Below are positions 40,176 through 55,973 of a stretch of DNA of 57,840 bases, in pieces. Made by a program: the position numbers and the translations under genes. Positions within the stretch are counted from its first letter, which is position 1. Every line of letters starts with the position of its first letter. Below the pieces are notes generated by a model that was not told where the DNA came from, did not search any database, and worked only from the letters and a program-made list of their open reading frames with translations. Origin of the DNA: Sulfuricurvum sp. (lineage in GTDB: Bacteria; Campylobacterota; Campylobacteria; Campylobacterales; Sulfurimonadaceae); contig JAUYRN010000011.1 in NCBI GenBank assembly GCA_030696775.1, positions 1 to 57,840 on the forward strand. Reading direction: 5' to 3'.

Positions 40176-40757
40176 ATGTTTACCCTGCCTTGTATTCTCT
40201 TCGCAGGGGGGAAAAGTTCCCGCATGGGACAAGATAAAGCACTTCTTTCTTTTGGCGGATATACTTCTCTTGCCGAATTCCAATACAACCGACTCACAAA
40301 GCTTTTCAGCAATGTCTATATTTCCACTAAAACACGTGAGAAATTCGATTTTGAAGCTCAATTTATCCTTGATGCAGACAATAGTGATTTTGCCCCAACA
40401 GCAGGTTTTGTGAGTGCTTTTGAGAGCTTAAAGTGCGAAAGTTTTTTTGCCCTCAGTGTTGATACCCCTTTTGTTGATGTCGATACGATCGAAACACTTC
40501 TTCATGCTGATGAATCTCATCTCGATGCCATCATTGCCAAAACGCCGTCAGGAACTCATCCTCTATGCGGAATTTATCATCATACATTGTTAGAAACCTT
40601 TCAGCAGATGCAGCGTGAAGGGGATCACCGACTAGGAAAACTGCTCTCCATGAAGCAAACACGTTTTGTAGAATTTGAAAACGAAGAAATTTTTATGAAT
40701 CTCAATCATCCTCACGAATATGAAGAAGCACTTTCTCGCTATAATAATAAAAATTAA
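40176..40757 (+). CDS. mobA: Molybdenum cofactor guanylyltransferase
   Basis: 193 residues. The nucleotide-transferase signature is near the start (LFAGGKSSRMGQDKALL), and the DTPFVDVDTIE acidic motif and HPLCGIYH are present. MobA attaches GMP to molybdopterin to give the bis-MGD form used by DMSO-reductase-family enzymes. The ATG directly follows the DUF2780 stop and has no Shine-Dalgarno, so translation is probably coupled. moaC follows after 15 bases. A DMSO-reductase-family operon lies 1.8 kb away, converging on this group. Confidence 0.92.
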   Translation: MFTLPCILFAGGKSSRMGQDKALLSFGGYTSLAEFQYNRLTKLFSNVYISTKTREKFDFEAQFILDADNSDFAPTAGFVSAFESLKCESFFALSVDTPFVDVDTIETLLHADESHLDAIIAKTPSGTHPLCGIYHHTLLETFQQMQREGDHRLGKLLSMKQTRFVEFENEEIFMNLNHPHEYEEALSRYNNKN

Positions 40758-40772
40758 ATAGGGGTTTACCCA

Positions 40773-41267
40773 ATGCATTTAACCCACCTCGATGAGCGTG
40801 ACCGACCAAAAATGGTCGATGTATCCGACAAAACGGCCACCACTCGAGTAGCCATTGCAAGCGGACTCATTACCATGAGCCAAGCTGCCTTTGATGCTGT
40901 CGTCAACCAAACCGCCAAAAAAGGTCCTGTCCTCCAAACAGCTGTAATTGCTGCCATCATGGGAACCAAAAAGACAAGTGACCTTATTCCAATGTGCCAT
41001 CCGTTAAACTTAAGCGGTGTAAACTGTGACATTGACGAACTTCCTGATTTACCTGGATTTCGTCTTACCGTTACTGCAAAACTAACAGGACAGACAGGAG
41101 TGGAAATGGAAGCCCTCACAGGAACAAGCATCGGCTTGCTCACCATTTACGATATGCTAAAAGCAATCGATAAAGGGATGGTCATCGGACCCATCCAACT
41201 TGAAACCAAATCAGGAGGAAAAAGTGGCGATTACATGCGAAATGAACGGACAAACACTACAGCTTGA
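40773..41267 (+). CDS. moaC: Cyclic pyranopterin monophosphate synthase
   Basis: 164 residues. MoaC converts the MoaA product to cyclic pyranopterin monophosphate in molybdopterin synthesis. Family motifs are all seen: [48 protein letters not shown] and the Lys/Asp pair KAIDKGM. AGGGG precedes the ATG. The last 44 bases overlap the DUF493 gene and contain its ribosome-binding site. Confidence 0.96.
41213..41218 (+). promoter_or_regulatory. Shine-Dalgarno that sets the DUF493 start inside moaC
   Basis: A perfect AGGAGG at 41213-41218 lies 5 bases before GTG 41224, within the moaC coding end. It favours this GTG over the TTG at 41200 or the ATG at 41242 as start of the next gene. Confidence 0.75.
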
Positions 41268-41496
41268 ATACCCTTGCTCATGGTGCTACAAAGTAATAGC
41301 ATTTGAACGGGCAGGTATTGAGATAGCGGCAATGGAAATTTTTTCTGAGCGAATCTATACCCTTAAGCCCTCCAACACGAGCGGCACAGGGAAATACGTC
41401 AGCATGAACTTAGAACTGTTGGTGCATAATGAGGATGAACGTACCTTTTTTTACGAAACACTCAAAGCACATCAGCACATCAAAATGGTACTCTAA
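41224..41496 (+). CDS. DUF493 (YbeD/HP0495-like) protein
   Basis: 90 residues from GTG 41224, set by the AGGAGG just before it. The sequence has the small ferredoxin-like DUF493 pattern: [13 protein letters not shown], then strands in [15 protein letters not shown] and a final helix [11 protein letters not shown]. Such proteins are often regulatory; YbeD lies beside lipoate genes in E. coli. Here it overlaps moaC by 44 bases, so it is co-expressed with molybdopterin synthesis. Its target is unknown. Confidence 0.85.
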
Positions 41497-41505
41497 AGGA
41501 AACAC

Positions 41506-42477
41506 ATGAGCCTCGAAACATTTGAAAGTCAATTTAATCTTCAAGATATTGCTAACCTTCCTCTGGATGAGTTAAAAAGTCGCACATCCGCGCTCTTAAA
41601 AGAGGAAGCTTCTTCTCTTCACAATGAGCTCGAAGAACTCATCGAGCAAAAAGAAAAAATAGAGCGTCAAATAGCCCGAAAAAGTGACGAATTACAGCAC
41701 CTGAAGTATCAATGTTTTGATATTTTAGAAAAAAAGTTTAGTGAGAATGAAGAGATTTTAGCGAAATTGCACCTCATTAAGATTCAATCCGTAGATCTGC
41801 TTGACATACTTGAAGAGATGGTCGAATCAGCGATTATCACAACTCTCGAACGGGATTCTGACACCGAAGAAACGTTGCATGAAATCATTAAAGAGATAAC
41901 CTTCCAAACGCTTAATGCCAACGTCCTAAATGCTGTTCGTATTCGACGCATCTTTTCAAGTATACTTCAAAGTGCGCTCAATGTTGCCGAAGCAACACCC
42001 AATCAAGCTGAACCTATTTTACGGGGAACACTTTTGGGTATCCGCTCAGCACTCCATAAATCGATAGAGAAATTCCGTCAATATCTCCTCTATCTTCCCG
42101 ATGAAATCCGAGCGCTTTACCATAAAGAGTATCAATTAATCGAAGATGAATTGGAACAAATTCATACCCTATTTGGGCAAATCGTCCACTCTCTTGCCAA
42201 AAATAACTCTCCTGTCCTTATAGAGCAACTTACAGCTATTGGCACAGAAATCCGTTTGGACAGTGATGAACTCTCGATTTTGTCGAAAGAAACAGCCAAA
42301 CTTCTCCAAGGTAAACTCTCCAAACTGCGTCAAGAAGTAAGTGAACGCGGTGCGGCACTCCTTAATTCTAACTCAGCACAAGAAGCAAAAGCAATGGGCA
42401 AAAGAGCGTGGAGTGTTGCGAAGTCAACGATGGAAGGGGCACTCAAAAGTGCCAAAGAAGCTATGGAGAAAAAATAA
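41506..42477 (+). CDS. Coiled-coil protein of unknown function
   Basis: 323 residues, acidic, no signal peptide or membrane helix. Residues 25-75 form a strong coiled coil (LEELIEQKEKIERQIARK); about 100-260 are helical and rich in Leu, Glu and Ile; the last 40 are Ala/Lys-rich amphipathic (AKAMGKRAWSVAKSTME). AAAGGAAA precedes the ATG, 9 bases after the DUF493 stop, so it ends the mobA-moaC transcript. I do not recognise a family. Confidence 0.75.
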   Translation: MSLETFESQFNLQDIANLPLDELKSRTSALLKEEASSLHNELEELIEQKEKIERQIARKSDELQHLKYQCFDILEKKFSENEEILAKLHLIKIQSVDLLDILEEMVESAIITTLERDSDTEETLHEIIKEITFQTLNANVLNAVRIRRIFSSILQSALNVAEATPNQAEPILRGTLLGIRSALHKSIEKFRQYLLYLPDEIRALYHKEYQLIEDELEQIHTLFGQIVHSLAKNNSPVLIEQLTAIGTEIRLDSDELSILSKETAKLLQGKLSKLRQEVSERGAALLNSNSAQEAKAMGKRAWSVAKSTMEGALKSAKEAMEKK

Positions 42478-42516: not shown

Positions 42517-43602
42517 CTACATATCCTTAGCCATCGTAAACATATTACTAAACTCTTTTTTATAACCGGAACAACGATCACAAATGGGGTCACCGCCTTT
42601 ATAAGGGAACGGACAACGACACTCATTGCACATCACCATCTCATAATGAACCAGCTGCTCTGAGCGCTCATACGCAATACTTATCATATCAAATCCAGCT
42701 TTAGCTGTGATGGCATTAGGCTTACATATATCTTCACATATCCCGCATCCGATACATTTGCCCTGAGCGAAATAGATTCCCTGCTTATCTGAGGTCGGAA
42801 ACAATGCATCCGTAGGACAAAATTGGGTACAATCACCACAATTCGTACACAGGTCAAAAGCAATTTGTTTGTTAAAAAAAAGCGGTGATGATTCTGCAAA
42901 ATCCGTTACTTCCATCGCCGTCACAACATCTTTAAGACTATTTTTTAGCAGGACTTTCTTAAGAGGCATTGTCATATTGGGAAGCGCATGATGAGAGGCT
43001 GTCATACTTTTTTGAACACGTGGAGTATCCGCCACCACTTCTTTTGCTTTTTCCAATCCTTTACGAAAAAGGGCGCGGCGCGGTTCTTGTTCCTCATGAA
43101 CTTCAAGGGTATTAATTTTTTTATCCACTGCTATTTGTACTAAAAAGTCGTTTGCTTGATCAATAGTCGCACGAATAGCCACTTCCATCTTTCCATGCTC
43201 ATTCAATGCACATGTGGAACAATGACTCATATCACATACAACCGCCAATTCTCCGCGCAAGGTCATCGTCAGCAAATGTTCGGTATCAAATACACCTAAA
43301 CACGGTGTTGTACTTTTACATGAAAGCTGAGTGTTTGTCTGAGACTGAAAAGATACCGAAAATTCATTGGGATCAAAACTTTCAATCTCAAATGCTTCAG
43401 TAGGACAGCTTCCAATACATCCAGCGCATTCTATGCATTCATTCTCAAACAAAGTAAGCTTATTACGGACTAAATGGATTGCCTCTTTGGGGCACAAATC
43501 GATACAAATATGACAATCATTATGAAAATACTCATTGCGCAAACAACGTGTCGCAGTAAAACTAAAAAGGTTGTTTTTTTGAATAAAGTTATGATTACCC
43601 AT
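42517..43602 (-). CDS. Four-cluster ferredoxin-like protein with a C-terminal Cys-rich (zinc-ribbon-like) tail
   Basis: 361 residues from the ATG at 43602 (AAGAGA upstream), which overlaps the torD stop by 8 bases; an ORF from 43662 would overlap by 68. Four ferredoxin motifs: CHICIDLCP, CIECAGCIGSCP, CTNCGDCTQFCP and CIGCGICEDICKP. The tail has CNECRCPFPYKGGDPICDRC, like a rubredoxin or zinc ribbon. No signal peptide, so cytoplasmic. It is the last gene of the molybdoenzyme operon. A role in supplying electrons or FeS clusters during enzyme maturation is inferred. Confidence 0.85.
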   Translation of the reverse strand: MGNHNFIQKNNLFSFTATRCLRNEYFHNDCHICIDLCPKEAIHLVRNKLTLFENECIECAGCIGSCPTEAFEIESFDPNEFSVSFQSQTNTQLSCKSTTPCLGVFDTEHLLTMTLRGELAVVCDMSHCSTCALNEHGKMEVAIRATIDQANDFLVQIAVDKKINTLEVHEEQEPRRALFRKGLEKAKEVVADTPRVQKSMTASHHALPNMTMPLKKVLLKNSLKDVVTAMEVTDFAESSPLFFNKQIAFDLCTNCGDCTQFCPTDALFPTSDKQGIYFAQGKCIGCGICEDICKPNAITAKAGFDMISIAYERSEQLVHYEMVMCNECRCPFPYKGGDPICDRCSGYKKEFSNMFTMAKDM

Positions 43603-44164
43603 TAGCAATCTCTTGGTGTAAATATTCATAATCAGAGCATAAAAACTCCACCATAAAATCACATATATCTTTGTAAAAAGGGGTATCTGCCATGCTTTTC
43701 ATCCCTAGCATATATGGGATAACCCACATAAATAAATGTTCATCCATAAACTGGACTTGTGCTTTCATCTCATTGCGAAATACCAGCATCTGCATAAAAG
43801 CCAATTCGATAGAGAGATGATCCGGAGCCATGAGCTCGGTTTGATCCATGTTAAGCTCAAAACCATGCGTAAAATAAAAAGCCATTACCGGATTTTGCAG
43901 TCCAACGAGCGTTTCATTTTTCGCATCCAAAACAAACGACTCAACCGGCTGGGTATTGAGAAAAAAGAGGGAAGTATAATCGGTATTCAATGCCGAATAT
44001 AGCTCTTCTTCATTGGTTGTGTCAAACCACGCTTTCGTCTCTTCACCAATAACCTCGAGCAATTGTTGATTATTTTTGAGGTCAGTGATAAAACGACGAT
44101 CGGGGATATTACTCATTACGCGCGATAAAAATGCATAGATATAACGACGATACTCTGTATTCAT
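43595..44164 (-). CDS. TorD-family molybdoenzyme chaperone
   Basis: 189 residues, all helical. The TorD/DmsD motif reads PDHLSIELAFMQML, with a later Met/Trp-rich helix (DEHLFMWVIPYMLGM). These chaperones bind the Tat signal of their enzyme and hold the apoprotein for cofactor insertion. The likely client is the 970-aa catalytic subunit encoded 2.8 kb upstream in the same operon. It follows a hairpin terminator, so its level may be lower than that of the structural subunits. Confidence 0.9.
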   Translation of the reverse strand: MNTEYRRYIYAFLSRVMSNIPDRRFITDLKNNQQLLEVIGEETKAWFDTTNEEELYSALNTDYTSLFFLNTQPVESFVLDAKNETLVGLQNPVMAFYFTHGFELNMDQTELMAPDHLSIELAFMQMLVFRNEMKAQVQFMDEHLFMWVIPYMLGMKSMADTPFYKDICDFMVEFLCSDYEYLHQEIANG

Positions 44165-44240
44165 AAATAATTCCTAAAAAAAGTAAGGGATTGTGTCACA
44201 CGAGGACTTTGAGACAGCAAAGTTTAGACAATTAAAACAC

Positions 44241-44260
44241 TAACCCAAAGAGGGGTTAGG
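44241..44260 (-). terminator. Intrinsic terminator or attenuator inside the molybdoenzyme operon
   Basis: On the reverse strand CTAACCC and GGGTTAG form a 7-bp stem with a 6-base loop, followed by TGTTTTAATT. It lies just after the small Cys-rich protein gene (stop at 44267) and 77 bases before torD, placing structural genes before it and maturation genes after it. Confidence 0.6.
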
Positions 44261-44266
44261 TCGGTG

Positions 44267-44665
44267 TTATAAACACCCTTTGAAGAACGATTTCTTCGGT
44301 GGAGGAGGAGCTTTAAATTCTGTTGCAGCGATTGTGTTTGTTTTTTCATCCAATACACCTACGATAATAACACCGTTCTTATTCATCCCCTCACCAAGTT
44401 CGGAAACTTTCAACTTGCTACTATCCACAAAATATGTTTTACCCGTATTATGTTGGTAAATAGCCAATTTTGGATTAGTAGTTGCACCCGGTTCAATTTT
44501 TTTAAAACAGTCATCCGAACCACACGTGTAGTTTTCCAGATAACAATCTGCAAATGCGCCTTGAGCAGCACATGCCGGAGTTGTTAACAGACCTTCAAAC
44601 TCTTGCCCTTCATTTGCAAATGCGCTAACAACAAATGCTGCGCAAATCAGTGCAAATTTTTTCAT
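44267..44665 (-). CDS. Small secreted Cys-rich protein of the molybdoenzyme operon
   Basis: 132 residues. Signal peptide about 1-17. The mature part has Cys residues in TPACAAQ, ADCYLENYTCGSDDCF and a C-terminal GCL, able to form disulfides. The tail is Pro/Lys-rich (APPPPKKSFFKGCL). The ATG overlaps the stop of the cytochrome subunit as TAATG, so it is co-translated with it. I do not recognise the family. It may be an accessory subunit or a haem or FeS assembly factor for the periplasmic enzyme. Confidence 0.78.
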   Translation of the reverse strand: MKKFALICAAFVVSAFANEGQEFEGLLTTPACAAQGAFADCYLENYTCGSDDCFKKIEPGATTNPKLAIYQHNTGKTYFVDSSKLKVSELGEGMNKNGVIIVGVLDEKTNTIAATEFKAPPPPKKSFFKGCL

Positions 44666-45867
44666 TATTCTACCTCCGATTTCAGGGTTTTGAGGTATGC
44701 CACTATATCATCAACTGTCGCTTTATCCAAAAAGCTAAAGTCGGTCATGGTCGAAATACGTTTACCCTTTTCAATATTGTACCACGGTGTATTCGCGTGC
44801 GCATTACGATTATAACCTGGCACAACAACCGCAGACGGTTTTAAGATTGACTCACGAAGATACGCAGCAGTAGCATAGCCACCCACGTTTTTGAGTGATG
44901 GTCCAAGCAAGCTCTGAGCGTCTGCAGCACTCATTTGGTGACAACCGGTACATCCGTTTGTTGCAGCCGCTTCTTTACCTTTAGCTGCATCACCTTTTGT
45001 ATCTGTCGTTAGCTCAGCAACCATAGCTGCATTTGCTGTTTGACCTTCTAAATTGATAGCAACCCATGAACTAAGATTTTTCAATCCGTTACGTCCCATA
45101 CTGGATCCATCCCATACCGCGATTGCAACAGGAACAGTACCTTTTAGATTCACATATTCATCTTTGAGAGGACGGCTTAGTGTTCCGCTCCAACCTGCTG
45201 GTCCATGAACCATAGCACCGTTTGATTTTACTGAGTTATCTTTGATCTCTGTAGTTGAACGGAATCCTTCAGCAACAAAAACTTTTTCATAATCAGTTTT
45301 AGCCAATGATGCCACTTTTGCGTCGAAATCAGCTAACTCTTTTCCAAATACACCCGTTTGTTGGCGATTGATTTGAGTAGAAACATCTTTGTTTCCATTT
45401 GGCTCATACACTTTTGCTGTTGCTTTTTGTAAATGGACAACAACCGGACGACCTGCTGAACCCATACCGATGTATGGAAGCGGTTGAGGTTTAGCGGTAG
45501 CACCCGCGAATTGAACCGCGAATCCATCTGTATAAACATCACTGGTCATACATTGCTCAACGTCTTTTGTTTTATCTGCCCATTTTACCATTACCGCAAT
45601 ATTTTTTCCATCGTGCAAAGCAGCAACTTGTGCTTTTTTACCTTTAGAATTTGCGACTAAAGCATTGGCTTTTTTGTCGTTAAATTCAATCGATGTTTGC
45701 GGATAAAGAATAACGGTTTCAAATTTTGCTTTCGACCAAAGAGCCGAATCCGCTTTAATGGTATCAAGATTATCTGATACTTTTACTGCAGTAATCGCAG
45801 GATTTGCAGCCAAAGCCGCAGATGCGACAACGCCTAATGAAAGAAGTGAGTTAAGAAGCTTTTTCAT
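44665..45867 (-). CDS. Haem b subunit (ethylbenzene-dehydrogenase gamma type) fused to cytochrome c
   Basis: 400 residues. Signal peptide about 1-20. About 22-280 match the gamma subunit of type II DMSO-reductase-family enzymes: a YIGMGSAGRPVVVHL strand (Met135 a candidate haem b ligand) and VPVAIAVWDGSSMGRNGLKNLSSW, with Lys263 as the possible second ligand. From about 292 a cytochrome c domain starts, with CTGCH (306-310) and a later Met. The usual gamma subunit has only the first part, so this one carries an extra c-haem and can pass electrons onward itself. The TAATG overlap with the FeS gene shows coupling. Confidence 0.9.
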   Translation of the reverse strand: MKKLLNSLLSLGVVASAALAANPAITAVKVSDNLDTIKADSALWSKAKFETVILYPQTSIEFNDKKANALVANSKGKKAQVAALHDGKNIAVMVKWADKTKDVEQCMTSDVYTDGFAVQFAGATAKPQPLPYIGMGSAGRPVVVHLQKATAKVYEPNGNKDVSTQINRQQTGVFGKELADFDAKVASLAKTDYEKVFVAEGFRSTTEIKDNSVKSNGAMVHGPAGWSGTLSRPLKDEYVNLKGTVPVAIAVWDGSSMGRNGLKNLSSWVAINLEGQTANAAMVAELTTDTKGDAAKGKEAAATNGCTGCHQMSAADAQSLLGPSLKNVGGYATAAYLRESILKPSAVVVPGYNRNAHANTPWYNIEKGKRISTMTDFSFLDKATVDDIVAYLKTLKSEVE

Positions 45868-46964
45868 TAATGGTGTCCTCCCGCTTTCGTAAATTTACCG
45901 GCAAGGTAGCGAGTATCTACAGGTGCCAATGGTGTACGTTTTTGCTCTTTTGCAACTTCTTGATAGTAATTATTATCCAAACGGAACATATCTGCATGTT
46001 GGTACGCGATCAGAATGTCCATAAGCTCACTAACGCCCGTCTCTTTACGTTTTTTCATTTCCGCTTTAAGCGTTTTAATCGCATGATGAACTTCAGGTCC
46101 AAACAATTTTTCAAGCTCTTCGATTGGAAGACGCGTTGATCCCTCGATGATTTTCCCCTCCGCATCAAATTTAGCAGGAGATTCGGTCGGAGGAACATAA
46201 TATACATTTGGTTGTGTGCCGTAATCCGGACGCAAACCAATTGCTACTTTATATTGATGTACCAATTTATACACTTGTGACTCTTCATCATCCAAGAATC
46301 CTACAAAACGAATACGTCCAACACATTGTTGTGCACATGCTGGTGGCAATCCCTGCTCAATACGTGGGAAACAAAGGATACATTTCTCTGATTTAGAGAT
46401 TTTTGGATTGAAATAGATTTTTTTGTAAGGACATCCAGCGATACAATAACGATATCCTTGACAACGATCTAAATCCACCAAAACAACACCGTCTTGCTCA
46501 CGCTTGAAGATAGCATCACGAGGACACGCACTCAAACATCCCGGATTTGTACAGTGATTACAAATACGTGGCAAGTAGAAGAAATAGTTGTCTTGTGGGA
46601 ATGCACCTGCTCCCTGATCCTCATCCCAGTTTGGTCCCCAAGTAGGAGATACATGCGGTTTAAAGGTACTGTGATCAGCACTTTCCGTCATGATAGACTC
46701 ATAGTTATAATCCCAAGGAACCCCATAATCGGCTTCAAGATTTGGAATAACTCCCGGCTGAAGATCGCCCGCAGCGTCAAATCCGCCGCCAAGTTCCATC
46801 CAATTTTTTGGATAACCCGTACCCGGATAGGTCTCAACGTTATTCCAATACATATATTCACGACCATTACGGTTCGTCCACTGTGTTTTACATGCCACAG
46901 TACATGTTTGGCACCCGATACATTTGTTCAGGTCCATGACCATTGCTAATTGTCTTTTAGACAT
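45867..46964 (-). CDS. Four-cluster FeS subunit of a type II molybdoenzyme (NarH/SerB/DdhB type)
   Basis: 365 residues. Four Cys groups: CIGCQTCTVAC (15-25), CNHCTNPGCLSACP, CQGYRYCIAGCP and CILCFPRIEQGLPPACAQQC. In the third group the second Cys position is Tyr, and in NarH it is Trp, the mark of one 3Fe-4S and three 4Fe-4S clusters. It links the catalytic subunit to the haem subunit. It has no signal peptide, so it must cross the membrane piggyback with the Tat-exported catalytic subunit. AAGGGG precedes the ATG, 9 bases after the catalytic gene. Confidence 0.94.
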   Translation of the reverse strand: MSKRQLAMVMDLNKCIGCQTCTVACKTQWTNRNGREYMYWNNVETYPGTGYPKNWMELGGGFDAAGDLQPGVIPNLEADYGVPWDYNYESIMTESADHSTFKPHVSPTWGPNWDEDQGAGAFPQDNYFFYLPRICNHCTNPGCLSACPRDAIFKREQDGVVLVDLDRCQGYRYCIAGCPYKKIYFNPKISKSEKCILCFPRIEQGLPPACAQQCVGRIRFVGFLDDEESQVYKLVHQYKVAIGLRPDYGTQPNVYYVPPTESPAKFDAEGKIIEGSTRLPIEELEKLFGPEVHHAIKTLKAEMKKRKETGVSELMDILIAYQHADMFRLDNNYYQEVAKEQKRTPLAPVDTRYLAGKFTKAGGHH

Positions 46965-46973
46965 CTAAACCCC

Positions 46974-49886
46974 TTAATATTTTACGTCAGTTGCTTTTTC
47001 ATAGTTCACGGCACCATCGTAAGCGTATTGGTTACCATCCCATAGACCACCGAATTTCAAGTGACCCCAGCCATCAGCCATTTCCAAAAGGTTCATCGCG
47101 ACAGGAACGACCTCATTGTGACCTTTATTTTTCAAATACATGTACGGTTCCCATCCATGCTCCATTACCAATCCATCAGCCGGTGCAGATGAAGAGAGTT
47201 TTGCCATTGCATAAAACTCACCTTGGTGATTGAAAATACGGATAGTATCGCCATCAGCGATTCCTTTAGTTTCTGCAACCACACGGTTTACTTGAATCGC
47301 AGGGACACCGCGCTGTAGTCGTAAAAGTGTACGTGACGTTTTATAGTTGGAGTGAATAGACCAACGTGCATGAGGCGTCATGAACACATACGGATGATCC
47401 GATGTTTGTGGACGAATCCCTTCCATACCAGTGTTTGTAGCTGCACCCATTTTGATGTACATATCATGGTCAACATAGAATGTTTGCCGTCCTGATAGTG
47501 TCTCAAGGCGCTCAAATTTATACAAATGATATTCCATAGAGCTGTATGGACGATCTGAGTACAACGGCGAACTTTTTGCTGCTTTTTCATTAATAAGCAA
47601 GAATCCGCCCACTTTGTACATTTTTTCCATTGTCCATGGCTCGTATTGCTCACATTTTTCCAATGCCGCTTGAACTGCCATCTTATCAGTTCCGAGATAA
47701 TTTTCACCGGCCCCTTCAGATTCCGCATCCGTATTTGTATACTCTTTGTGGAATATAGTCAAATCATGGAAACCAGGTTTTGCATATTTTTTATGATCAG
47801 GAACTTTTGCTTTACTAATGTTCTGAGGGCGATTTGCAAGCTCTTCCATTTTTTTAGCAAGAAGAGTAAACATTGACCACTCATCCATTGATTCACCAAT
47901 ATTTTTGATGTTCGCAACCGGTTGAGCCAAATTGGTAAAACGGTGGTAACCCGGAGACGTACGAAGGTCATAAACTTCGTAGTGCGATTTTGCAGGAAGC
48001 AAAATATCCGCAAATTGGGCCGCTTCAGACATACGATAGTCAACGTACGCATAAAATTTCGTTTTTTCTAAAAATGCTTTACGATATTCAGTCCCTTTAT
48101 TGCGACGGAATTTTGAGTCTGCTACGATGAGAGCACAATCAGGCTGCCACCATGGTTTGTTCACATTACCATGCTTTGACTCTTTGTTAACGGTATCATT
48201 CTCGCCTTGTTTGAGCATTTCTGACAATACTGCCATGTACTCTTTTTTAGACATACCATTTTGTGCACGCTTCACGTCTTCATCACTGAAAAACTTGTCA
48301 AACGATTTCATTCCGTCACCGAATACGAATTCGCCCACAAAACCAGATCCAAAACGAGCATTGTATTTACCGCTAAATCCTGCCAATACGCCAAGACCGG
48401 AAAGTTGGAACTCATTTTCAGTATTGAGTCCGCCGTATGGTCCCATACGACCTGTCAAACCACAGATAGAAGAGATATTCCAAATTGACATAACACCATT
48501 GAAATATTTGTTGAGAGAGAAGCCGGTTGTAATCTCAACGACTTTTGGCAATGCAATGTCATGCGCAAGAATACGAACGGTATCAGGATGTACCCCTGTG
48601 ATCTCTTTGGTTGCTTCAGGTGCAAATTTTGCCGCAGATGCTTTAAGCATTTCAAATACGGTTGTTACATTGCGCTTATCGCCATGCATATCCGTAATTG
48701 TCCATGAACCTTCAAGCTCTGGAGTGATTCCCTGCTCATCAAGACGAAGTGATTTAATTGCACTTCCTTCAGATGCCGGCATTAACGCAGGTTTTCCTGT
48801 CGCTGAATTCATGCAGTAGAACTCTTCTGTATATTTATGGTGATCTTCTTCATTCGCCGCATGCTCCATATCGGAACGACGGATCATTTTTTGCGTTTTC
48901 ACATCGACCAAGAATGGAAGATCGGTAAACGTTTTCATGAACTCCGGCTTATAAAGCTTTTCGTTGATGATAATATTCATAACACTCATTGCCAAAATGT
49001 TGTCAGAACCTGCTTTGATCGGGATCCAAAGGTCCGCTGATTTAGCGGTTGCATTGAACTCAGGAGTGATAACGATGACTTTTGCGCCGTTGTATTTTCC
49101 TTCCCAAACGAAGTGAGCATCAGGAATACGAGAAACCGATGGATTTCCACCCCACATAACAGCGGTGTCGACGGTATACATGAAATCCCACGTACAACCA
49201 ACGTTACCCTCTCCATAGGCGATAGCAGCACCTGAGAACATGTCCCCTAGGTATGATGATGGATAAATACGAATCGCGCCCAATTGAGTTGAGAAACGCA
49301 ATGGAGCACCACGACGACCTTCTGTAAGCAAACCTGTACCTGCGTGAACCATCAATTTATCTGGTCCGCGTTGTGGATCAGTCATACAATCAAAAATTTG
49401 TTGACATACGACCTCAGCAGCCTCATCCCAGCTAATACGTTTCCATTTACCTTCACCACGCTCACCAACACGTTGCATTGGATAAAGCAAACGGTCTTTT
49501 TGGTACATTACTTGAGAGTGCTGAACCCCTTTATTACATCCACGTGGGTTGAAGTCAGGGATTTTTGCATTGATAACCGGATAACGAGCCGATTGGTTTT
49601 CACGAGTAACAACACCGTTATTTGACCAAACTTCCCAAGCACAGTTACCTTGACAGTTTACACAGTGATACGCGAAACCATGCTCTTCTTTTTTACCGTA
49701 CGTAAACGCAAATTCATTGCGATACATGCTTTCAGTATAGTTGGTATTCGGGTAATTCTCTTTCCCGTTTTCAACCGACATTACATTTGTTTTTGCGAAA
49801 AGTGAACCTTGTGAAGCCACCAATGCAGCCGTCATACCTGAAACTTTCAGGAAATCACGACGATTATTGTTCATTACTTTTGTCAT
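46974..49886 (-). CDS. Type II DMSO-reductase-family molybdopterin catalytic subunit
   Basis: 970 residues. Tat motif RRDFLK (9-14) and a hydrophobic stretch show periplasmic export. FS0 cluster ligands are His74, Cys78, Cys82 and Cys117 (HCVNCQGNC, then RGCNKG): the type II pattern of NarG, SerA, DdhA and PcrA, here with an extra Cys75. Asp215 in SYLGDMFSG is the candidate Mo ligand. Bis-MGD-binding motifs are seen (MWGGNPSVSRIPD, VITPEFNATAKSADLWIPIKAG). Known relatives act on nitrate, selenate, chlorate, dimethyl sulfide or hydrocarbons; the substrate here is unknown. The upstream rhodanese suggests a sulfur compound. AAGG precedes the ATG. Confidence 0.93.
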   Translation of the reverse strand: MTKVMNNNRRDFLKVSGMTAALVASQGSLFAKTNVMSVENGKENYPNTNYTESMYRNEFAFTYGKKEEHGFAYHCVNCQGNCAWEVWSNNGVVTRENQSARYPVINAKIPDFNPRGCNKGVQHSQVMYQKDRLLYPMQRVGERGEGKWKRISWDEAAEVVCQQIFDCMTDPQRGPDKLMVHAGTGLLTEGRRGAPLRFSTQLGAIRIYPSSYLGDMFSGAAIAYGEGNVGCTWDFMYTVDTAVMWGGNPSVSRIPDAHFVWEGKYNGAKVIVITPEFNATAKSADLWIPIKAGSDNILAMSVMNIIINEKLYKPEFMKTFTDLPFLVDVKTQKMIRRSDMEHAANEEDHHKYTEEFYCMNSATGKPALMPASEGSAIKSLRLDEQGITPELEGSWTITDMHGDKRNVTTVFEMLKASAAKFAPEATKEITGVHPDTVRILAHDIALPKVVEITTGFSLNKYFNGVMSIWNISSICGLTGRMGPYGGLNTENEFQLSGLGVLAGFSGKYNARFGSGFVGEFVFGDGMKSFDKFFSDEDVKRAQNGMSKKEYMAVLSEMLKQGENDTVNKESKHGNVNKPWWQPDCALIVADSKFRRNKGTEYRKAFLEKTKFYAYVDYRMSEAAQFADILLPAKSHYEVYDLRTSPGYHRFTNLAQPVANIKNIGESMDEWSMFTLLAKKMEELANRPQNISKAKVPDHKKYAKPGFHDLTIFHKEYTNTDAESEGAGENYLGTDKMAVQAALEKCEQYEPWTMEKMYKVGGFLLINEKAAKSSPLYSDRPYSSMEYHLYKFERLETLSGRQTFYVDHDMYIKMGAATNTGMEGIRPQTSDHPYVFMTPHARWSIHSNYKTSRTLLRLQRGVPAIQVNRVVAETKGIADGDTIRIFNHQGEFYAMAKLSSSAPADGLVMEHGWEPYMYLKNKGHNEVVPVAMNLLEMADGWGHLKFGGLWDGNQYAYDGAVNYEKATDVKY

Positions 49887-49895
49887 ATTTGAGCC

Positions 49896-51011
49896 TTATC
49901 GTTTAATCGGAAGATTCATGTCGTTACCCCAAACATCCCAGCTTCCAGTGAAGACTTTGACGTTTTTGTAACCGAGCAATTGGAGCGCTGTAATGTGTTC
50001 AGAACCGCGACCCGCGCCTACTTGACAGTAAGCATAAATCGTTTTATCTTTGGTAACACCATAATTATCGTATACTTTTTGGATCTCATCTGCAGACTTA
50101 AATGACATTTTTTTATCTGCATCCGAAATTTGACTCCATTCGATGAAGGTTGCTCCCGGAATGTGTCCGCCGCGTGCTACGTTATCCATTTTACGCTCAC
50201 CGATAATCTCTGCAAGTCCGCGAGAGTCAATAATAACAAATTTGGAACTTTTACCATTTTTGAGAATATCTTCCATTGCATGTTTCACTTCATTTTTATC
50301 AGCGATTACAGTGTATTTGACATTTTTAGGATTAATTTTATAGGTTTTAGCGGTAACAGTTTCATCACCTTTGACGACTAAAAGACGTTTTTCAACTTCT
50401 GTCATCTTTGTTTTCAATGCTACAGAATCTGTTTGAGCTTTTGCAATGATCGCATCAAGTGCTGCTTTGTCAGCACCCTCTTTTTTCAATGCTTCTTTTG
50501 CATCTTTTTGAGCTTTTGAACTTGCTTTTAATTCTTTATTAAGAGCATCGTACTCTTTTTGAGCCGGATCAACTGCCATCATAGCTGAACGTCCGCCATT
50601 GAGTACTTTTACATTTTTGTGTCCATAACTGTCAAAAAATGAATAAACACCTGTTGCATTGGGACCCTTGAAGTCATCGTATGCGATAACCATCATGTCA
50701 TTGCTAATCCCTTTTTTACCAATTGTTTGTTCAGCATCATCAATACAGCGATATAAAGGTGCACAGTGCATCTCTCCATCAATCTCTGAATGATGCAAAT
50801 GGTGCGCATACATCTCAACTGAACCTTTAATATGCCCAAGTTTATAAATGTCTTCGTTATCACCTGATACAAACATAACTTTTGGATTTCCGATCAACTT
50901 AACCGCGTCTTCGGCTGAAATAAGAATGTCCTTATTTACATAATCCGCAGCCAATACATTTGCCGCAGATAATGATGCCGCCAAACAGAGTGTCATTAAC
51001 AATCTATTCAT
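49896..51011 (-). CDS. Periplasmic tandem rhodanese with coiled-coil insert
   Basis: 371 residues from the ATG at 51011 (AAGGAG upstream; an in-frame start 21 bases earlier is less likely). Signal peptide about 1-22. The first rhodanese domain (about 30-148) has Asp where the active Cys should be (AYDDFKGPN). An insert rich in Lys, Ala and Glu (about 150-215) is probably a coiled coil. The second domain (about 235-371) keeps the active Cys329 in YCQVGAGRGSE. Rhodaneses carry sulfane sulfur. As first gene of the molybdoenzyme operon, 9 bases before the catalytic subunit, it may feed a sulfur substrate to, or take it from, that enzyme. Confidence 0.9.
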   Translation of the reverse strand: MNRLLMTLCLAASLSAANVLAADYVNKDILISAEDAVKLIGNPKVMFVSGDNEDIYKLGHIKGSVEMYAHHLHHSEIDGEMHCAPLYRCIDDAEQTIGKKGISNDMMVIAYDDFKGPNATGVYSFFDSYGHKNVKVLNGGRSAMMAVDPAQKEYDALNKELKASSKAQKDAKEALKKEGADKAALDAIIAKAQTDSVALKTKMTEVEKRLLVVKGDETVTAKTYKINPKNVKYTVIADKNEVKHAMEDILKNGKSSKFVIIDSRGLAEIIGERKMDNVARGGHIPGATFIEWSQISDADKKMSFKSADEIQKVYDNYGVTKDKTIYAYCQVGAGRGSEHITALQLLGYKNVKVFTGSWDVWGNDMNLPIKR

Positions 51012-51105: not shown

Positions 51106-51337
51106 GATTCGAGAGTCTTAATAACTCTTAAATTTGTTTTAAAACTTGCTATTTATTTACCATTTGTTACATTCCCATCACAATTTCGTGCAATCTTCCC
51201 AATAAGATATTGTTTTATGTTTTCTTATAAATCTACTAACTTTTCTAAACCTTATAACTTAAACTTAAAAGTATTTGTTTAATGAGTTTTTGCTAGTATC
51301 ACAGTTACATTTATATCAAAATCCAAGGAGTCCTCGT

Positions 51338-51943
51338 ATGAGCACTACCACTGTTTCGTATGCAATTGAACATTTAGACACCCTCACTCTTATAGAATTT
51401 CTCGAAGATAAAGCCCTTCCAATTGAAGACGTGCGCGCGATTTATGACGCCTTTAAAGATGATAAACAATTAGTTGGACAAGTCGCCATGAATCTCTCAT
51501 TGCGTACCTCTGTTTATGAACGCGAAAAAGAGTACAGTCCTATTATGGTTGCATTACTGATTGATATTTCTCAAAATCCGATCGATATGGGGGCTCGTTG
51601 GGCGGTCGCTAAAAACCCTCATACTCCCGTAGAAGTTTTACGACATTTGGCCAATGACACCATCAATCTTGTTCGTGCGCTAGTAGCAACCAATCCCTCA
51701 ACGCCAAGTGATGTTTTAGAGAAATTTTTCAGTGATGAAAAGATTGTGCGTGATGGACTTTCAGGCAATCCAAACACTCCCCCAAAACTACTAAAAATAC
51801 TGGTGGATGACAATGACAAAATGGTGCGTATGCGCCTTGCTGAAAACCGTGCAGCACCAAGAGAAATCATTGAATCACTTCTAAAAGATAATGATATTGA
51901 CGTAACGAAAGCAGCACAAGCAAATTTGGATGCTTCTAAATGA
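51338..51943 (+). CDS. LRV-repeat protein, first gene of the mrp operon
   Basis: 201 residues from the ATG at 51338 (AAGGAGT upstream), preferred to an in-frame ATG at 51275. After an N-terminal helical region (about 1-90), four leucine-rich-variant repeats of about 24-26 residues follow, each starting NPxTP or similar and holding a VLxxL helix. The classic Azotobacter LRV protein has an FeS-binding Cys cluster before the repeats; this one has no cysteine. The stop overlaps the next ATG as ATGA, and mrp, an FeS carrier, is two genes downstream, so an FeS-related scaffold role is plausible. Confidence 0.82.
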   Translation: MSTTTVSYAIEHLDTLTLIEFLEDKALPIEDVRAIYDAFKDDKQLVGQVAMNLSLRTSVYEREKEYSPIMVALLIDISQNPIDMGARWAVAKNPHTPVEVLRHLANDTINLVRALVATNPSTPSDVLEKFFSDEKIVRDGLSGNPNTPPKLLKILVDDNDKMVRMRLAENRAAPREIIESLLKDNDIDVTKAAQANLDASK

Positions 51944-52311
51944 AAAAACACAATCATGAAATGCGTAGTAAATTTCTGACTCTGGAAAACCATTTTCTCA
52001 ATACTTTTTTCTCAGGTCTCTATTTGAGTGCAGGCGATTTTATCCGTATTGCTGCGGCAAATGGACTTGATTTAAAAATGCATTCACGTGAAATGCTTAT
52101 CAAAGAACTATTGAATGAAACCGATAAACTTGGGACCATAGGAGGTGTCGTTGCTGCCTTGAATCGTCTCATTGATGAACGTATCACGGCCTATCACCGC
52201 CTTAGTCTCGAATACCCTGCCGCACGTGTACCACTCGCAAAGCTTGCACAAAAAGCTACGGGCACAAAATCCCTTCTCGCACGAGATGTTAGAGGTAATC
52301 CTTATGAATAG
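51940..52311 (+). CDS. Small unknown protein between the LRV gene and mrp
   Basis: 123 residues, helical, basic, rich in His and Arg at the start (KKHNHEMRSK). No signal peptide, membrane helix or Cys. It overlaps the LRV gene by ATGA and mrp by 8 bases, so the three products are tightly coupled. No family recognised. Confidence 0.7.
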   Translation: MKKHNHEMRSKFLTLENHFLNTFFSGLYLSAGDFIRIAAANGLDLKMHSREMLIKELLNETDKLGTIGGVVAALNRLIDERITAYHRLSLEYPAARVPLAKLAQKATGTKSLLARDVRGNPYE

Positions 52312-53344
52312 TAAAAACTTTGAGCACGCACTACAAGCCCTTAAATACCCAAATCTTGATCGAACCCTTGGAGAGCTAAAGCTTATCTCGACTTCAAAGG
52401 TAACAGACGATAATGCTTACGTAGAACTTCTGACCGTCAGTGATGAATCGTATCTCACCGTCAAAACAGCCATTGAAAATGCTTTCGCACATGAATTTAA
52501 ATCGTTAAATATCACGAAAAAAGCGCAAATACAAAAAGACACCAACTACGGTACAACGGCAACCCCCAATAATCGAGCACCGTATGCGGCAAACGTTATC
52601 GCTGTAACGAGCGGCAAGGGTGGAGTGGGCAAAAGTACCGTAAGCGTTAATCTTGCTATCGCACTTGCTCAGTTAGGCTATAAGGTAGGTTTATTGGATG
52701 CTGACGTGTATGGACCTAACGTACCTCGTCTTACCAATACTGATTTGGAAAAAATCAGCTGGAATGATGACAATAAAATCGTCCCAAGCGAAAATTACGG
52801 ACTCAAAATAATGAGCGTGGCATTAACCACCCCTACCTCAGATACACCACTTGTCTGGCGTTCATCCGTTGCCGTTTCTGCGCTGATTCAGTTTTTAGAA
52901 GATGTTGCATGGGGCGAGCTTGATTTTATGGTCATCGATATGCCTCCGGGCACTGGCGACATTCAACTCACCATGGCGCAAGAGCTTCCAATCACAGCAG
53001 GTGTTCTCGTCACTACTCCTCAACTCGTAGCATCCGATGATGTCAGCCGTGCTATCCGGATGTTTCAAGACATCCACGTCCCTATGGCAGGATTGGTTGA
53101 AAACATGAGCTATTTTATTGCTCCGGATACAGGAAATCGTTATGATATTTTTGGTTCAGGTGGAGGACAGCGACTAAGCGAACGATACAATATTCCCCTA
53201 TTAGGTCAAATACCGCTCGATATGGAAATCCGAGAAGGTTCAGATAATGGAGAACCCCCAGTAGCACTTGGAAACGATGTACAAAAAAAATATTATCAAG
53301 ATATTGTGAAAAGAATGCTAGAGACAATAGAGTTTAAACTTTAG
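52304..53344 (+). CDS. mrp: Mrp/ApbC-family P-loop FeS-cluster carrier
   Basis: 346 residues from the ATG at 52304 (AGAGG upstream); the longer frame would overlap the previous gene by 140 bases. An N-terminal MIP18/DUF59 domain (about 1-78) precedes the deviant Walker A SGKGGVGKS (103-111), LLDADVYGPN and VIDMPPGTGD. Mrp proteins bind and pass on 4Fe-4S clusters. The usual CxxC after ENMS is missing: the segment reads ENMSYFIAPDTG. Such Mrp variants exist in other groups, but how they hold a cluster is unclear. Confidence 0.94.
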   Translation: MNSKNFEHALQALKYPNLDRTLGELKLISTSKVTDDNAYVELLTVSDESYLTVKTAIENAFAHEFKSLNITKKAQIQKDTNYGTTATPNNRAPYAANVIAVTSGKGGVGKSTVSVNLAIALAQLGYKVGLLDADVYGPNVPRLTNTDLEKISWNDDNKIVPSENYGLKIMSVALTTPTSDTPLVWRSSVAVSALIQFLEDVAWGELDFMVIDMPPGTGDIQLTMAQELPITAGVLVTTPQLVASDDVSRAIRMFQDIHVPMAGLVENMSYFIAPDTGNRYDIFGSGGGQRLSERYNIPLLGQIPLDMEIREGSDNGEPPVALGNDVQKKYYQDIVKRMLETIEFKL

Positions 53345-53972: not shown

Positions 53973-54803
53973 TTATTTAAACGTTTTTTGAAGACTTTTT
54001 GTAACAGCATCAGGAATCGTCATAATTCCCATAAATCCGCCCATGTCTAACAATGGATAGCTAACTGCGATAAAATATTTTGCATTTAACGCTTTTGCTT
54101 TTCCACCTTCGATAAGCACAGCCCATGGCAAAAGCTCACTGTTTTGTGCACCGATCTTTTTAGGGAAAGCACTGGTACGTTTATCAAGCTCAACAAACGC
54201 AACATAACGATCATCTCCCACTTGAACAACTGTCCCTTTAGCTGCTTTTGCACGAGCAACTAAATCAGCTGTTGATCCCTCACCTACAACGTCCATATCT
54301 TGATAATACGGCATTCCAAGCATAAAGCGATAATTAGATAATCCTGCAAATTCCCATTGATCTTCAGAATTTCTTAATGGACCAAATGCTTTTTCCAAAG
54401 CGATGTATTCAGCAGAAGCGGTTGCATGATTGTAATCATCTTGCAAGAATGCTTTATTAAAATAAATAGGGTTAGCGATATGCACTTGATGGCGCTCATC
54501 ATCCACTAAAATTCTTCCTACAGCAGCCAAAGCACGTATTGGCTTGTTAGCATCAGCTTTCATAGCTGCATTCGTATACAAAATCGTTGTACACGTTTCA
54601 GCTGGCTTAAACGTACCTACGACTTCAAAACCCTGAGCCGCTAATTTTGATTTAGCGCTCTCAACGTCAACATACGCTCCAACTCTGTATGCTGGAACCA
54701 TTTTTTCTATGGCAACGCCACCTTCAATCTTTGGCGCAGTTGCTGAACATCCTGAAAATGCGATGGCAAATGCCAACGCAGTTAATGATAGTATTTTTTT
54801 CAT
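53973..54803 (-). CDS. DUF302-type lipoprotein
   Basis: 276 residues. The signal peptide ends in a lipobox (AFSGC, Cys19), so it is a lipoprotein. The body holds two halves, with a DVESAKSKLAAQGFEVVGTF start typical of DUF302. Function unknown; DUF302 proteins are small alpha/beta folds. Its ATG overlaps the stop of the second DUF302 gene upstream, and a FadL-type porin precedes both. Confidence 0.8.
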   Translation of the reverse strand: MKKILSLTALAFAIAFSGCSATAPKIEGGVAIEKMVPAYRVGAYVDVESAKSKLAAQGFEVVGTFKPAETCTTILYTNAAMKADANKPIRALAAVGRILVDDERHQVHIANPIYFNKAFLQDDYNHATASAEYIALEKAFGPLRNSEDQWEFAGLSNYRFMLGMPYYQDMDVVGEGSTADLVARAKAAKGTVVQVGDDRYVAFVELDKRTSAFPKKIGAQNSELLPWAVLIEGGKAKALNAKYFIAVSYPLLDMGGFMGIMTIPDAVTKSLQKTFK

Positions 54804-55810
54804 AGCTCTTTTGCTCCTAGATCTGTCATGATTTTAGTGATTTCTTTATCAAGACCTAGAATAGAATCAACCATCTTAGGATCTTTGATACCCATAACCG
54901 CTGCCCATGTTTCCAAACGTGGCATACCTATCATCATCTTGTTAGATCCTTTGTCAACATACATGTACATTGAACACGGTGCGAAGACATTGGCATCAGG
55001 ACGACCTTGGTTGAAAATACCCTCTGAGAAGCGGAAGTGACACAATGAATAAACCCAATACGCATCAAAACGATCAAACTTGATTCCTGCACCGTCCATA
55101 GACTCTTTCATATCTTTATAACCGGCAATGATATATTTATGCGCTTCGAATGCCTCTTCAAATCGACTTTGGAAATCACCTTTAAACTTTTCTACTCCGC
55201 CAGCACGATCAAACGGTACTTCAAATGTCATCATAGGTTTCGCAGGAAGCGTTTTGTAATCGACATATTGCACTTTTGAACTAATCGCATTTTCGGTCAT
55301 TTTGTCTAACTCAGTGAAAGAAGCATTAAACTTTTCACGAACTTCTTTGTCTTTTACCCCAACGATGTCCAACATAGTATCCGGCATTACATGTCCTACG
55401 TATGTTTTATCTTCGCCCAATTTTTTGTAGATTCCAAGATTAAATGGAGAAAATCCGCCAAGAGACGGTTCTTTCATCAACAATGGTCCAACAGTCGCAT
55501 CATTGGTAATTGAGAAAAATCCAAGATTGTCCAATGTTACTTTAAACGTCGGGTCAAAATCTGGATGAGGCCCCGTTACACCTTTGATCGTTTGTGTCGC
55601 TGTTCCCCATTTGGTTTTATACGCATTGTCGATATGCTCATGCGGATCAGAAAGAACAAATCCGATAGCACTGATCTTTTCATTGACCAAACTCATAAAC
55701 TCTTTTTCTTTATCGCCGTCACCAACGTAAAATTTTACCCCTTGGGCACCAAAAGCAACAGAGGCTGCAAGCGATAGTGCGAACGCACTCATTAAAAATT
55801 TGTTTAACAT
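54800..55810 (-). CDS. Secreted DUF302-domain protein
   Basis: 336 residues with a cleavable signal (about 1-22). The second half holds a DUF302 domain, recognisable by FRFSEGIFNQGRPDANVFAPCSMYMYVD and the IGMPRLETWAAVMGIKD segment. AGGAGA precedes the ATG. A TACAAT -10 candidate at 55857-55862 gives it its own promoter. Function unknown; its link to the FadL-type porin is inferred from order only. Confidence 0.8.
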   Translation of the reverse strand: MLNKFLMSAFALSLAASVAFGAQGVKFYVGDGDKEKEFMSLVNEKISAIGFVLSDPHEHIDNAYKTKWGTATQTIKGVTGPHPDFDPTFKVTLDNLGFFSITNDATVGPLLMKEPSLGGFSPFNLGIYKKLGEDKTYVGHVMPDTMLDIVGVKDKEVREKFNASFTELDKMTENAISSKVQYVDYKTLPAKPMMTFEVPFDRAGGVEKFKGDFQSRFEEAFEAHKYIIAGYKDMKESMDGAGIKFDRFDAYWVYSLCHFRFSEGIFNQGRPDANVFAPCSMYMYVDKGSNKMMIGMPRLETWAAVMGIKDPKMVDSILGLDKEITKIMTDLGAKEL

Positions 55811-55856
55811 CTTATCTCCTAATGTAAGTTGAGGATCTTCTCATTTTATGTAGACT

Positions 55857-55862
55857 ATTGTA
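55857..55862 (-). promoter_or_regulatory. Candidate -10 box of the DUF302 gene pair
   Basis: TACAAT reads on the reverse strand at 55862-55857, 47 bases before the ATG at 55810. No -35 seen. Confidence 0.4.
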
Positions 55863-55947
55863 TCACAAAGACATCAAAAAAACGATAATAACACATCAAC
55901 AATTTGATCTCTTATTATGGATTAGAAAAGTGAATGGATTGTGAATA

Positions 55948-55965
55948 TCTCTCCGAGTGGAGAGA
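55948..55965. terminator. Hairpin after the FadL-type gene
   Basis: TCTCTCC and GGAGAGA form a 7-bp stem with a GAGT loop, 9 bases past the porin stop. No T-run follows on the reverse strand, so it may only stabilise the transcript end. Confidence 0.4.
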
Positions 55966-55973
55966 AAAACTTC

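Follow-up and report, generated by a model that had tools for sequence, protein, structure and literature searches.

Among the described systems closest to the locus considered here, SoxC belongs to the sulfite-oxidase fold family, and dimethyl sulfide (DMS) dehydrogenase is an enzyme of the type II dimethyl sulfoxide (DMSO) reductase family that oxidizes sulfur. In Wolinella succinogenes, the exported rhodanese Sud serves a molybdenum (Mo) enzyme, polysulfide reductase, and in DsrC the penultimate Cys is carried on a flexible C-terminal arm. The stretch of DNA analyzed in our study (the window), 57,840 nucleotides of contig JAUYRN010000011.1 from Sulfuricurvum sp., holds a seven-gene operon on the minus strand, running from 51011 to 42517 and encoding, in this order, a rhodanese, the alpha, beta and gamma subunits of a type II Mo enzyme, a protein of 132 amino acids (aa; hereafter the small protein), a TorD chaperone and a polyferredoxin. 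Judging from sequence comparisons, we consider it reasonably probable that the operon specifies a periplasmic dehydrogenase that is linked to cytochrome c, acts on protein-bound sulfane sulfur and replaces SoxCD. It would work like SoxCD, yet it is not a SoxCD member, and its SoxCD-like function is suggested by the comparison of genomes described below.

The distribution of alpha and SoxC was compared in two samples, one of 100 relatives unselected for the trait and one of 398 genomes drawn evenly from the order, with some genomes in both; many of them are metagenome bins, and presence was called by sequence thresholds. SoxC was recognized with the model TIGR04555, its count of 141 in the order sample referring to E <= 1e-80 (139 are above the cut-off), and the corresponding count for alpha, 96, is that of 100 matches minus four distant ones. 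In these 398 genomes, both systems occur together in 4 (G109, G245, G272, G345), 165 have neither (Fisher p 6.6e-16), and alpha without SoxC was found in 92. The 100 relatives (alpha in 51, SoxC in 35) comprise 47 with alpha only, 31 with SoxC only, 4 with both (G004, G018, G048, G052) and 18 with neither (p 3.6e-9). For the window's genus (41 genomes), the figures in the same order are 27, 9, 2 and 3 (p 2.9e-5), and for the other genera of the family (20 genomes) they are 6, 12, 2 and 0. None of the 15 relatives assembled in one or two contigs holds both systems (alpha 6, SoxC 7, neither 2), so missing assembly is not behind the exclusion. The window genome itself (G000, 2.55 Mb) has no SoxC over the TIGR04555 cut-off, the best match reaching 188.8 of 420 bits on a different contig.

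Since the Fisher tests ignore kinship, the result is best read together with a tree-aware test that used the rpoB sequences of 96 relatives (the other four of the 100, G012, G017, G023 and G052, have no usable rpoB); on this tree, 17 changes are needed for alpha and 17 for SoxC. Among 12 independent pairs on supported branches, SoxC was opposite in 6.3 on average and went the same way in 0, with a median p of 0.031 (range 0.008-0.125) and a p of 0.25 for the SoxB control; switches between alpha and SoxC recur in several genera. A 76-genome tree, consisting mostly of carriers, gave p 0.002, but the choice of this sample itself favours exclusion. Furthermore, the 55 relatives with SoxB above its cut-off divide into 26 with alpha only, 24 with SoxC only, 1 with both and 4 with neither, the last being G010, which has the small-protein gene, G023 (83% complete), G032 (57% complete) and G080. 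Among the relatives, the occurrence of alpha depends neither on SoxB (p 0.69) nor on SoxY (p 0.83), and 15 alpha-positive, SoxC-negative relatives have neither SoxB above the cut-off nor a SoxY match. It follows that the alpha enzyme of these 15 genomes needs a carrier other than SoxY/SoxYZ.

The second line of evidence concerns the position of the genes, as in Sulfuricurvum the operon and soxCD use one chromosomal slot. We compared 40 soxC regions (soxY and soxZ were annotated there only where the open reading frame rule found them). In all nine Sulfuricurvum regions with SoxC only, soxC-soxD adjoins the same gene for a 276-aa exported protein that the operon adjoins in the window, and on the opposite side the eight regions with a long enough contig show the same DUF6781, 98-aa and moaC genes. 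In G004, the closest relative of the window genome in the 76-row tree, and in G018 the two systems stand in tandem: the divergent gene for an LRV-repeat protein is followed by soxCD(YZ), a thioredoxin-like gene, a MOSC gene and two DUF302b-like genes (the DUF302 label of neighbouring genes has below-threshold support only), and then by rhodanese and alpha. The same genes flank soxCDYZ in some Sulfurimonas. Four other Sulfurimonadaceae regions (L127, L130, L133, L134) have soxCD beside the moaC/mobA/98-aa/DUF6781 genes; in L131 only the DUF6781 gene adjoins, and L128, L129 and L132 have none of the slot flank genes. Outside the family, G272 has a sox cluster flanked by the LRV gene on one side and the rhodanese on the other. 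The 14 regions with SoxC only contain no fragments of the operon genes or of the LRV gene, which indicates that the alpha operon and soxCD are clean alternatives. A FadL/TodX porin and two exported proteins flank both versions of the slot in Sulfuricurvum; a role in the uptake of hydrophobic sulfur is a guess.

Operons of this kind occur widely across Campylobacterota. When 84,980 species genomes were scanned with one alpha sequence as the query, a search that reaches close relatives only, so that related operons outside Campylobacterota may escape it, 72 loci were returned; their best segments are 73-99% identical, and nearly all lie in Campylobacterota records. Where the flanks were long enough, 57 of 57 loci have the rhodanese gene on the strand of alpha and no more than 33 bp upstream of it, and the other partners were recovered almost throughout (beta 63/63, gamma 58/58, small protein 57/57, TorD 53/56, ferredoxin 50/52). 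Because the gene set is conserved across the testable loci, the arrangement is not due to chance.

The first-pass annotation of this DNA, made from the sequence and its open reading frames, had assigned the catalytic, iron-sulfur (Fe-S) and haem b subunits to the type II branch, and family searches agree: TIGR03479 is the best model for alpha, although its 736.8 bits are under the curated cut-off of 984.75, TIGR03478 recognizes beta over its cut-off, and the EB_dh model PF09459 covers residues 43-263 of gamma with 87.6 bits (cut-off 33.3), TIGR03477 giving 94.4 bits, under its cut-off of 169.85. All the genes that it named are present, including the tandem rhodanese opening the operon, which is exported, matches PF00581 in two stretches and starts with an ATG at 51011, preceded by AGGAG, the same end coordinate as before. 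What had been overlooked are the small protein and the cytochrome c domain at the C terminus of gamma (PF00034, residues 294-396), where both Cys of CxxCH are kept in 64 of 64 aligned rows. The two absences noted at that time hold as well, since a profile search of the whole genome for chlorite dismutase (PF06778) was empty and family searches found no match to a membrane-anchor family among the seven operon products.

From its sequence, alpha appears as an outlying lineage within the type II DMSO-reductase family. The equivalog models score well below their cut-offs (narG 221.6 of 1084 bits, EbdA 312.4 of 2000), the best PDB sequence matches are the perchlorate reductase PcrA (5e7o, E 3.5e-101) and ethylbenzene dehydrogenase (2ivf, 2e-83), and identity is 33% to chlorate reductase and 28% to a haloarchaeal enzyme (Halarchaeum, L295). 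Asp215, at the Mo-ligand position, and the FS0 residues H74-x3-C78-x3-C82...C118 align with PcrA and others, and we take their roles to be those known for the family. In a tree of N-terminal halves with 22 rows, which includes PcrA, ClrA, EbdA, NarG and the haloarchaeal enzyme and leaves out SerA, DdhA and steroid C25 dehydrogenase, 13 alpha rows group with a divergent sequence from G397 (support 100/99), apart from the five enzymes included; without G397, the 13 rows lie on one side of a branch with support 61/90, which is not starred. The branch joining ClrA to this lineage has a support of only 82/55. As several long branches meet in the tree, it does not fix the nearest sister of alpha. 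The phylogeny proposed as a check on the 970-aa subunit therefore gives a lineage separate from all five reference enzymes, and placement inside a clade of proven enzymes whose operons also carry the rhodanese, which the first-pass annotation had said would refute its interpretation, was not obtained among the enzymes included.

Some type II sequences were kept apart from alpha. Those of G276, G433 and G373 (30-35% identical) were not counted; found at L231 and L232, in one family, and at L233, in another, they group with PcrA (100/99) and are candidate (per)chlorate reductases according to their sequence. G397 (L234) was also kept out of the count, as its frame of 677 aa shows 39% identity across 312 residues and has no aligned FS0 residues; its position is unstable, inside or beside the alpha clade on a very long branch, its locus also carries a gamma-like protein (31%), and the frame is a candidate for a degenerate or repurposed alpha. 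In G098, a single-contig genome, alpha is split across two neighbouring frames (G098:C1:30223-33106), either through a frameshift or a sequencing error or because the gene is broken.

The small protein is the candidate for the carrier. Its gene is present in 50 of 51 alpha-positive and 1 of 49 alpha-negative relatives; it is missing in G081, where alpha is a fragment, and present in the alpha-negative G010. Because of this gene, the alpha of G010 is probably absent from the assembly or broken, and the counts were left unchanged. The C-terminal tail PPPPxKSFFKGCL occurs in all of the 49 rows out of 51 with a readable end, the others being L047, cut by a contig edge, and L075, which reads N. While the bodies drop to about 40% identity, the tail with its penultimate Cys131 is invariant in 48 aligned rows, and four Cys are invariant overall. 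The protein matched no Pfam or NCBIfam family, and a plasmid collection searched with it gave nothing. Its AlphaFold model, of low confidence (pLDDT 66), shows a body resembling an oligonucleotide/oligosaccharide-binding (OB) fold and a coil from residue 119; Foldseek returned no match at E <= 0.001, and a structural aligner gave middling scores to OB folds (best Z 6.9), which may reflect just a common arrangement. The small protein thus has what we would expect of a carrier: a flexible C-terminal arm bearing a conserved Cys. By analogy with SoxY and DsrC, which implies no homology to them, its tail is a possible sulfur-carrier arm.

The rhodanese has its active-site Cys329 (numbered from the ATG at 51011) in the C-terminal domain, and this residue, together with Cys83 and Cys89, is kept in 66 of 66 aligned rows. 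Its AlphaFold model (pLDDT 88.9) presents a rhodanese fold, with 1uar as the top PDB match (E 3.6e-17). A helical hairpin is inserted between the domains (about residues 149-207), and the N-terminal domain has an invariant patch, MxAHHLH...C-x-PL-x2-C. The loci of ClrA (L294), the haloarchaeal type II enzyme (L295) and the distant Campylobacterota hits (L231-L234) were searched for a rhodanese homologue, and none was found.

From the gene content, its conservation, the near exclusion of SoxC, the slot and the invariant Cys and tail, we infer the substrate, the direction, the order of sulfur transfer and the product. Cys329 of the rhodanese would take zero-valent (sulfane) sulfur as a persulfide and hand it to Cys131 of the small protein, whose flexible tail would enter alpha. 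There, the Mo centre would oxidize the terminal sulfur, using oxygen from water, in the direction of sulfite or a bound sulfonate, and the electrons would pass along the Fe-S clusters in alpha and beta to haem b, then to the fused cytochrome c of gamma and the respiratory chain. It is possible to hypothesize, with the chances for and against nearly balanced, that these parts form a second, Sox-independent periplasmic machine of Campylobacterota, composed of a rhodanese loader, a new OB-fold-like Cys-arm carrier and a type II dehydrogenase, which swaps repeatedly with soxCDYZ (at a single locus in Sulfuricurvum) and completes the 'incomplete' Sox pathway.

The proposal can be set beside the physiology reported for Sulfuricurvum kujiense DSM 16994 (G016), in which we found alpha, SoxB and SoxY and no SoxC over the cut-off; the genome was identified by its plasmid, contig 1 agreeing with NC_014754.1 at 100% over 6,000 compared bases. 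This strain and strain RIFRC-1 were reported to be without soxCD (excerpts of PMC4288042), and where soxCD is lacking, it is routinely concluded that thiosulfate is oxidized incompletely and that elemental sulfur, S(0), is formed (excerpts of PMC12403661 and PMC4288042). According to the sections consulted of PMC6890823, S. kujiense on thiosulfate alone formed no S(0) within 5 weeks and gave sulfate-like peaks, and S(0) did appear once sulfide was added. A complete Sox system was reported in a mine-water Sulfuricurvum (PMC10086054, in excerpt), and our finding of SoxC in 11 of 41 genomes fits a genus holding both kinds. In the open literature searched, read as excerpts, neither the operon nor a SoxCD substitute in Campylobacterota was described; the subscription literature may hold one. 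The 'MOLY' disproportionation cluster of Desulfobacterota/Nitrospirota, which also has a Mo enzyme and TorD, was set apart by its description only (PMC12998232, in excerpt).

The first-pass annotation had suggested a sulfur-compound dehydrogenase or reductase. The comparison supports this, and, since alpha nearly excludes SoxC and shares its slot, the dehydrogenase side is favoured. A polysulfide, sulfur or thiosulfate reductase, with the rhodanese delivering polysulfide sulfur and electrons flowing inward via cytochrome c, is unlikely. Type II enzymes do include reductases, and for a rhodanese beside a Mo enzyme the same phylum offers the precedent of Sud and polysulfide reductase described above, the idea also being mentioned in excerpts of PMC7952632; however, such a reductase would explain neither the exclusion nor the slot, the operon is without a quinol-oxidizing membrane subunit, and the fused cytochrome c leaves the direction undecided. 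Of much the same low probability is a dehydrogenase for another sulfur substrate, be it sulfite, thiosulfate or an organosulfur compound (methanethiol, dimethyl sulfide). It would be in line with the established type II membership of DMS dehydrogenase, and the exclusion of SoxC could also be understood if the enzyme took an adjacent step in that pathway, but sulfane sulfur is the substrate suggested by the conserved rhodanese and by the protein with the Cys tail. As regards sulfite, SoxC-like matches below the cut-off (about 150-190 bits), which we take to be of SorA type, occur in both alpha-positive and SoxC-positive genomes, so that a separate sulfite dehydrogenase seems present in both kinds. 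A respiratory reductase of nitrate, selenate, chlorate or perchlorate is very improbable: perchlorate reductase and ethylbenzene dehydrogenase are the nearest PDB relatives and chlorate reductase is 33% identical, yet the alpha lineage is separate, the genome is without chlorite dismutase, some Campylobacterota carry separate, true PcrA-like genes (L231-L233), and neither the rhodanese nor the SoxC pattern would be accounted for.

Several points weigh against a dehydrogenase that replaces SoxCD. The tree-aware test is modest, its range crossing 0.05, and within the family (57 genomes) it gives p 0.0625 (range 0.031-0.25); eight genomes across both samples hold both systems, and the exclusion could mirror niche, not equal function. 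In the remaining 19 regions, from other families, soxC has a different neighbourhood. Docking and metal binding are other possible roles for the tail of the small protein, whose model is of low confidence. On thiosulfate, the solution was also reported to contain what may be a zero-valent sulfur component (sections consulted of PMC6890823). The modest tree-aware p and the 4 of 398 genomes with both systems would suit an exclusion arising from ecology or from chance retention at a plastic locus, with the function of the enzyme unrelated. We regard this as improbable, given that 51 of the 55 SoxB-bearing relatives have alpha or SoxC and 1 has both, that the switches occur in several genera, and that no type II gene fragments are left in the 14 loci with SoxC only.

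The coordinates of the operon genes and their neighbours are collected in the table.

Table. Features of the operon and its surroundings, in window coordinates
Feature	Coordinates	Strand	Evidence
Slot flank: mobA-like (40176), moaC-like (40773), 98-aa gene (41200), DUF6781 protein (41506)	40176..42477	+	PF20572 for DUF6781
Multi-[4Fe-4S] protein, 381 aa	42517..43662	-	several Fer4 models over cut-off
TorD-family chaperone	43595..44164	-	PF02613 41.2 bits; TIGR03482 37.6 bits (below cut-off)
Terminator-like hairpin, between small-protein gene and torD	44240..44259	-	pattern match only
Small secreted protein, 132 aa, proposed sulfur carrier	44267..44665	-	four invariant Cys, invariant tail
Gamma, 400 aa, haem b (EB_dh) and C-terminal cytochrome c	44665..45867	-	PF09459, PF00034
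Beta, Fe-S electron-transfer subunit	45867..46964	-	TIGR03478 521.5 bits, above cut-off 480.7
Alpha, type II DMSO-reductase-family Mo subunit, 970 aa, exported by twin-arginine translocation (TAT)	46974..49886	-	TIGR03479 736.8 bits
Exported two-domain rhodanese	49896..51011	-	PF00581 in two stretches
LRV-repeat protein, divergent	51308..51943	+	PF01816 58 bits
ApbC/Mrp-type (NUBPL) P-loop NTPase	52277..53344	+	PF10609 312 bits
Other slot flank: two exported proteins and FadL/TodX-family outer-membrane protein	53973..57215	-	PF03349 75.8 bits (last)

The names mobA and moaC were assigned from sequence, without a family search. Terminator-like hairpins are near shuffle level in the region (11 matches versus 7.7, standard deviation 3.2, in shuffles), and promoter matches are no more frequent there than in shuffles. 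The LRV-repeat gene was found in 44 of 51 alpha-positive and 0 of 49 alpha-negative relatives (E <= 1e-30), and the ApbC/Mrp NTPase gene is the next but one after it. The NTPase is likely to act in Fe-S maturation, to judge from its family, and we would regard both proteins as maturation factors.

If the dehydrogenase assignment is true, the absence of soxCD has been misread as incomplete oxidation in many abundant Campylobacterota (alpha without SoxC in 92 of 398 genomes of the order), inorganic sulfane sulfur joins the substrates of type II Mo enzymes, and a new family of sulfur carriers and a marker gene for sulfur oxidation become available. The operon may explain how bacteria with the 'incomplete' pathway finish sulfur oxidation.

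Compared with SoxCD and SoxYZ, the operon shares the proposed reaction, the periplasmic location, the pairing of a Mo enzyme with a cytochrome c and, in Sulfuricurvum, the same neighbours; SoxY and the small protein both have a C-terminal Cys, in GGCGG for SoxY (named in TIGR04488) and in GCL for the small protein. Different from SoxC, described by TIGR04555, the operon has a Mo enzyme of the DMSO-reductase family with a chain of Fe-S clusters and haem b; it includes a rhodanese, and its carrier candidate is unrelated. With PcrAB, ClrABC, SerABC, DdhABC and EbdABC it has in common alpha, beta, a haem b gamma and TorD, and the Mo-Asp and His-type FS0 align; it is distinguished from these type II systems by its separate lineage, the cytochrome c fused to gamma, the rhodanese, the Cys-tailed protein and the ferredoxin, whereas in ClrABC (L294) the c-type cytochrome has its own gene and chlorite dismutase is present. 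PsrABC, the partner of Sud, represents another Mo lineage with a membrane anchor, and the direction proposed for the operon is opposite. The arm of the small protein resembles that of DsrC by analogy, without a sequence match, the small protein being secreted and having an OB-fold-like body. Finally, the haloarchaeal operon (Halarchaeum, L295) has alpha, beta, EB_dh and TorD, with HEAT-repeat and P-loop NTPase genes nearby that recall LRV and ApbC, but it differs in its Rieske and cytochrome b genes and has no rhodanese.

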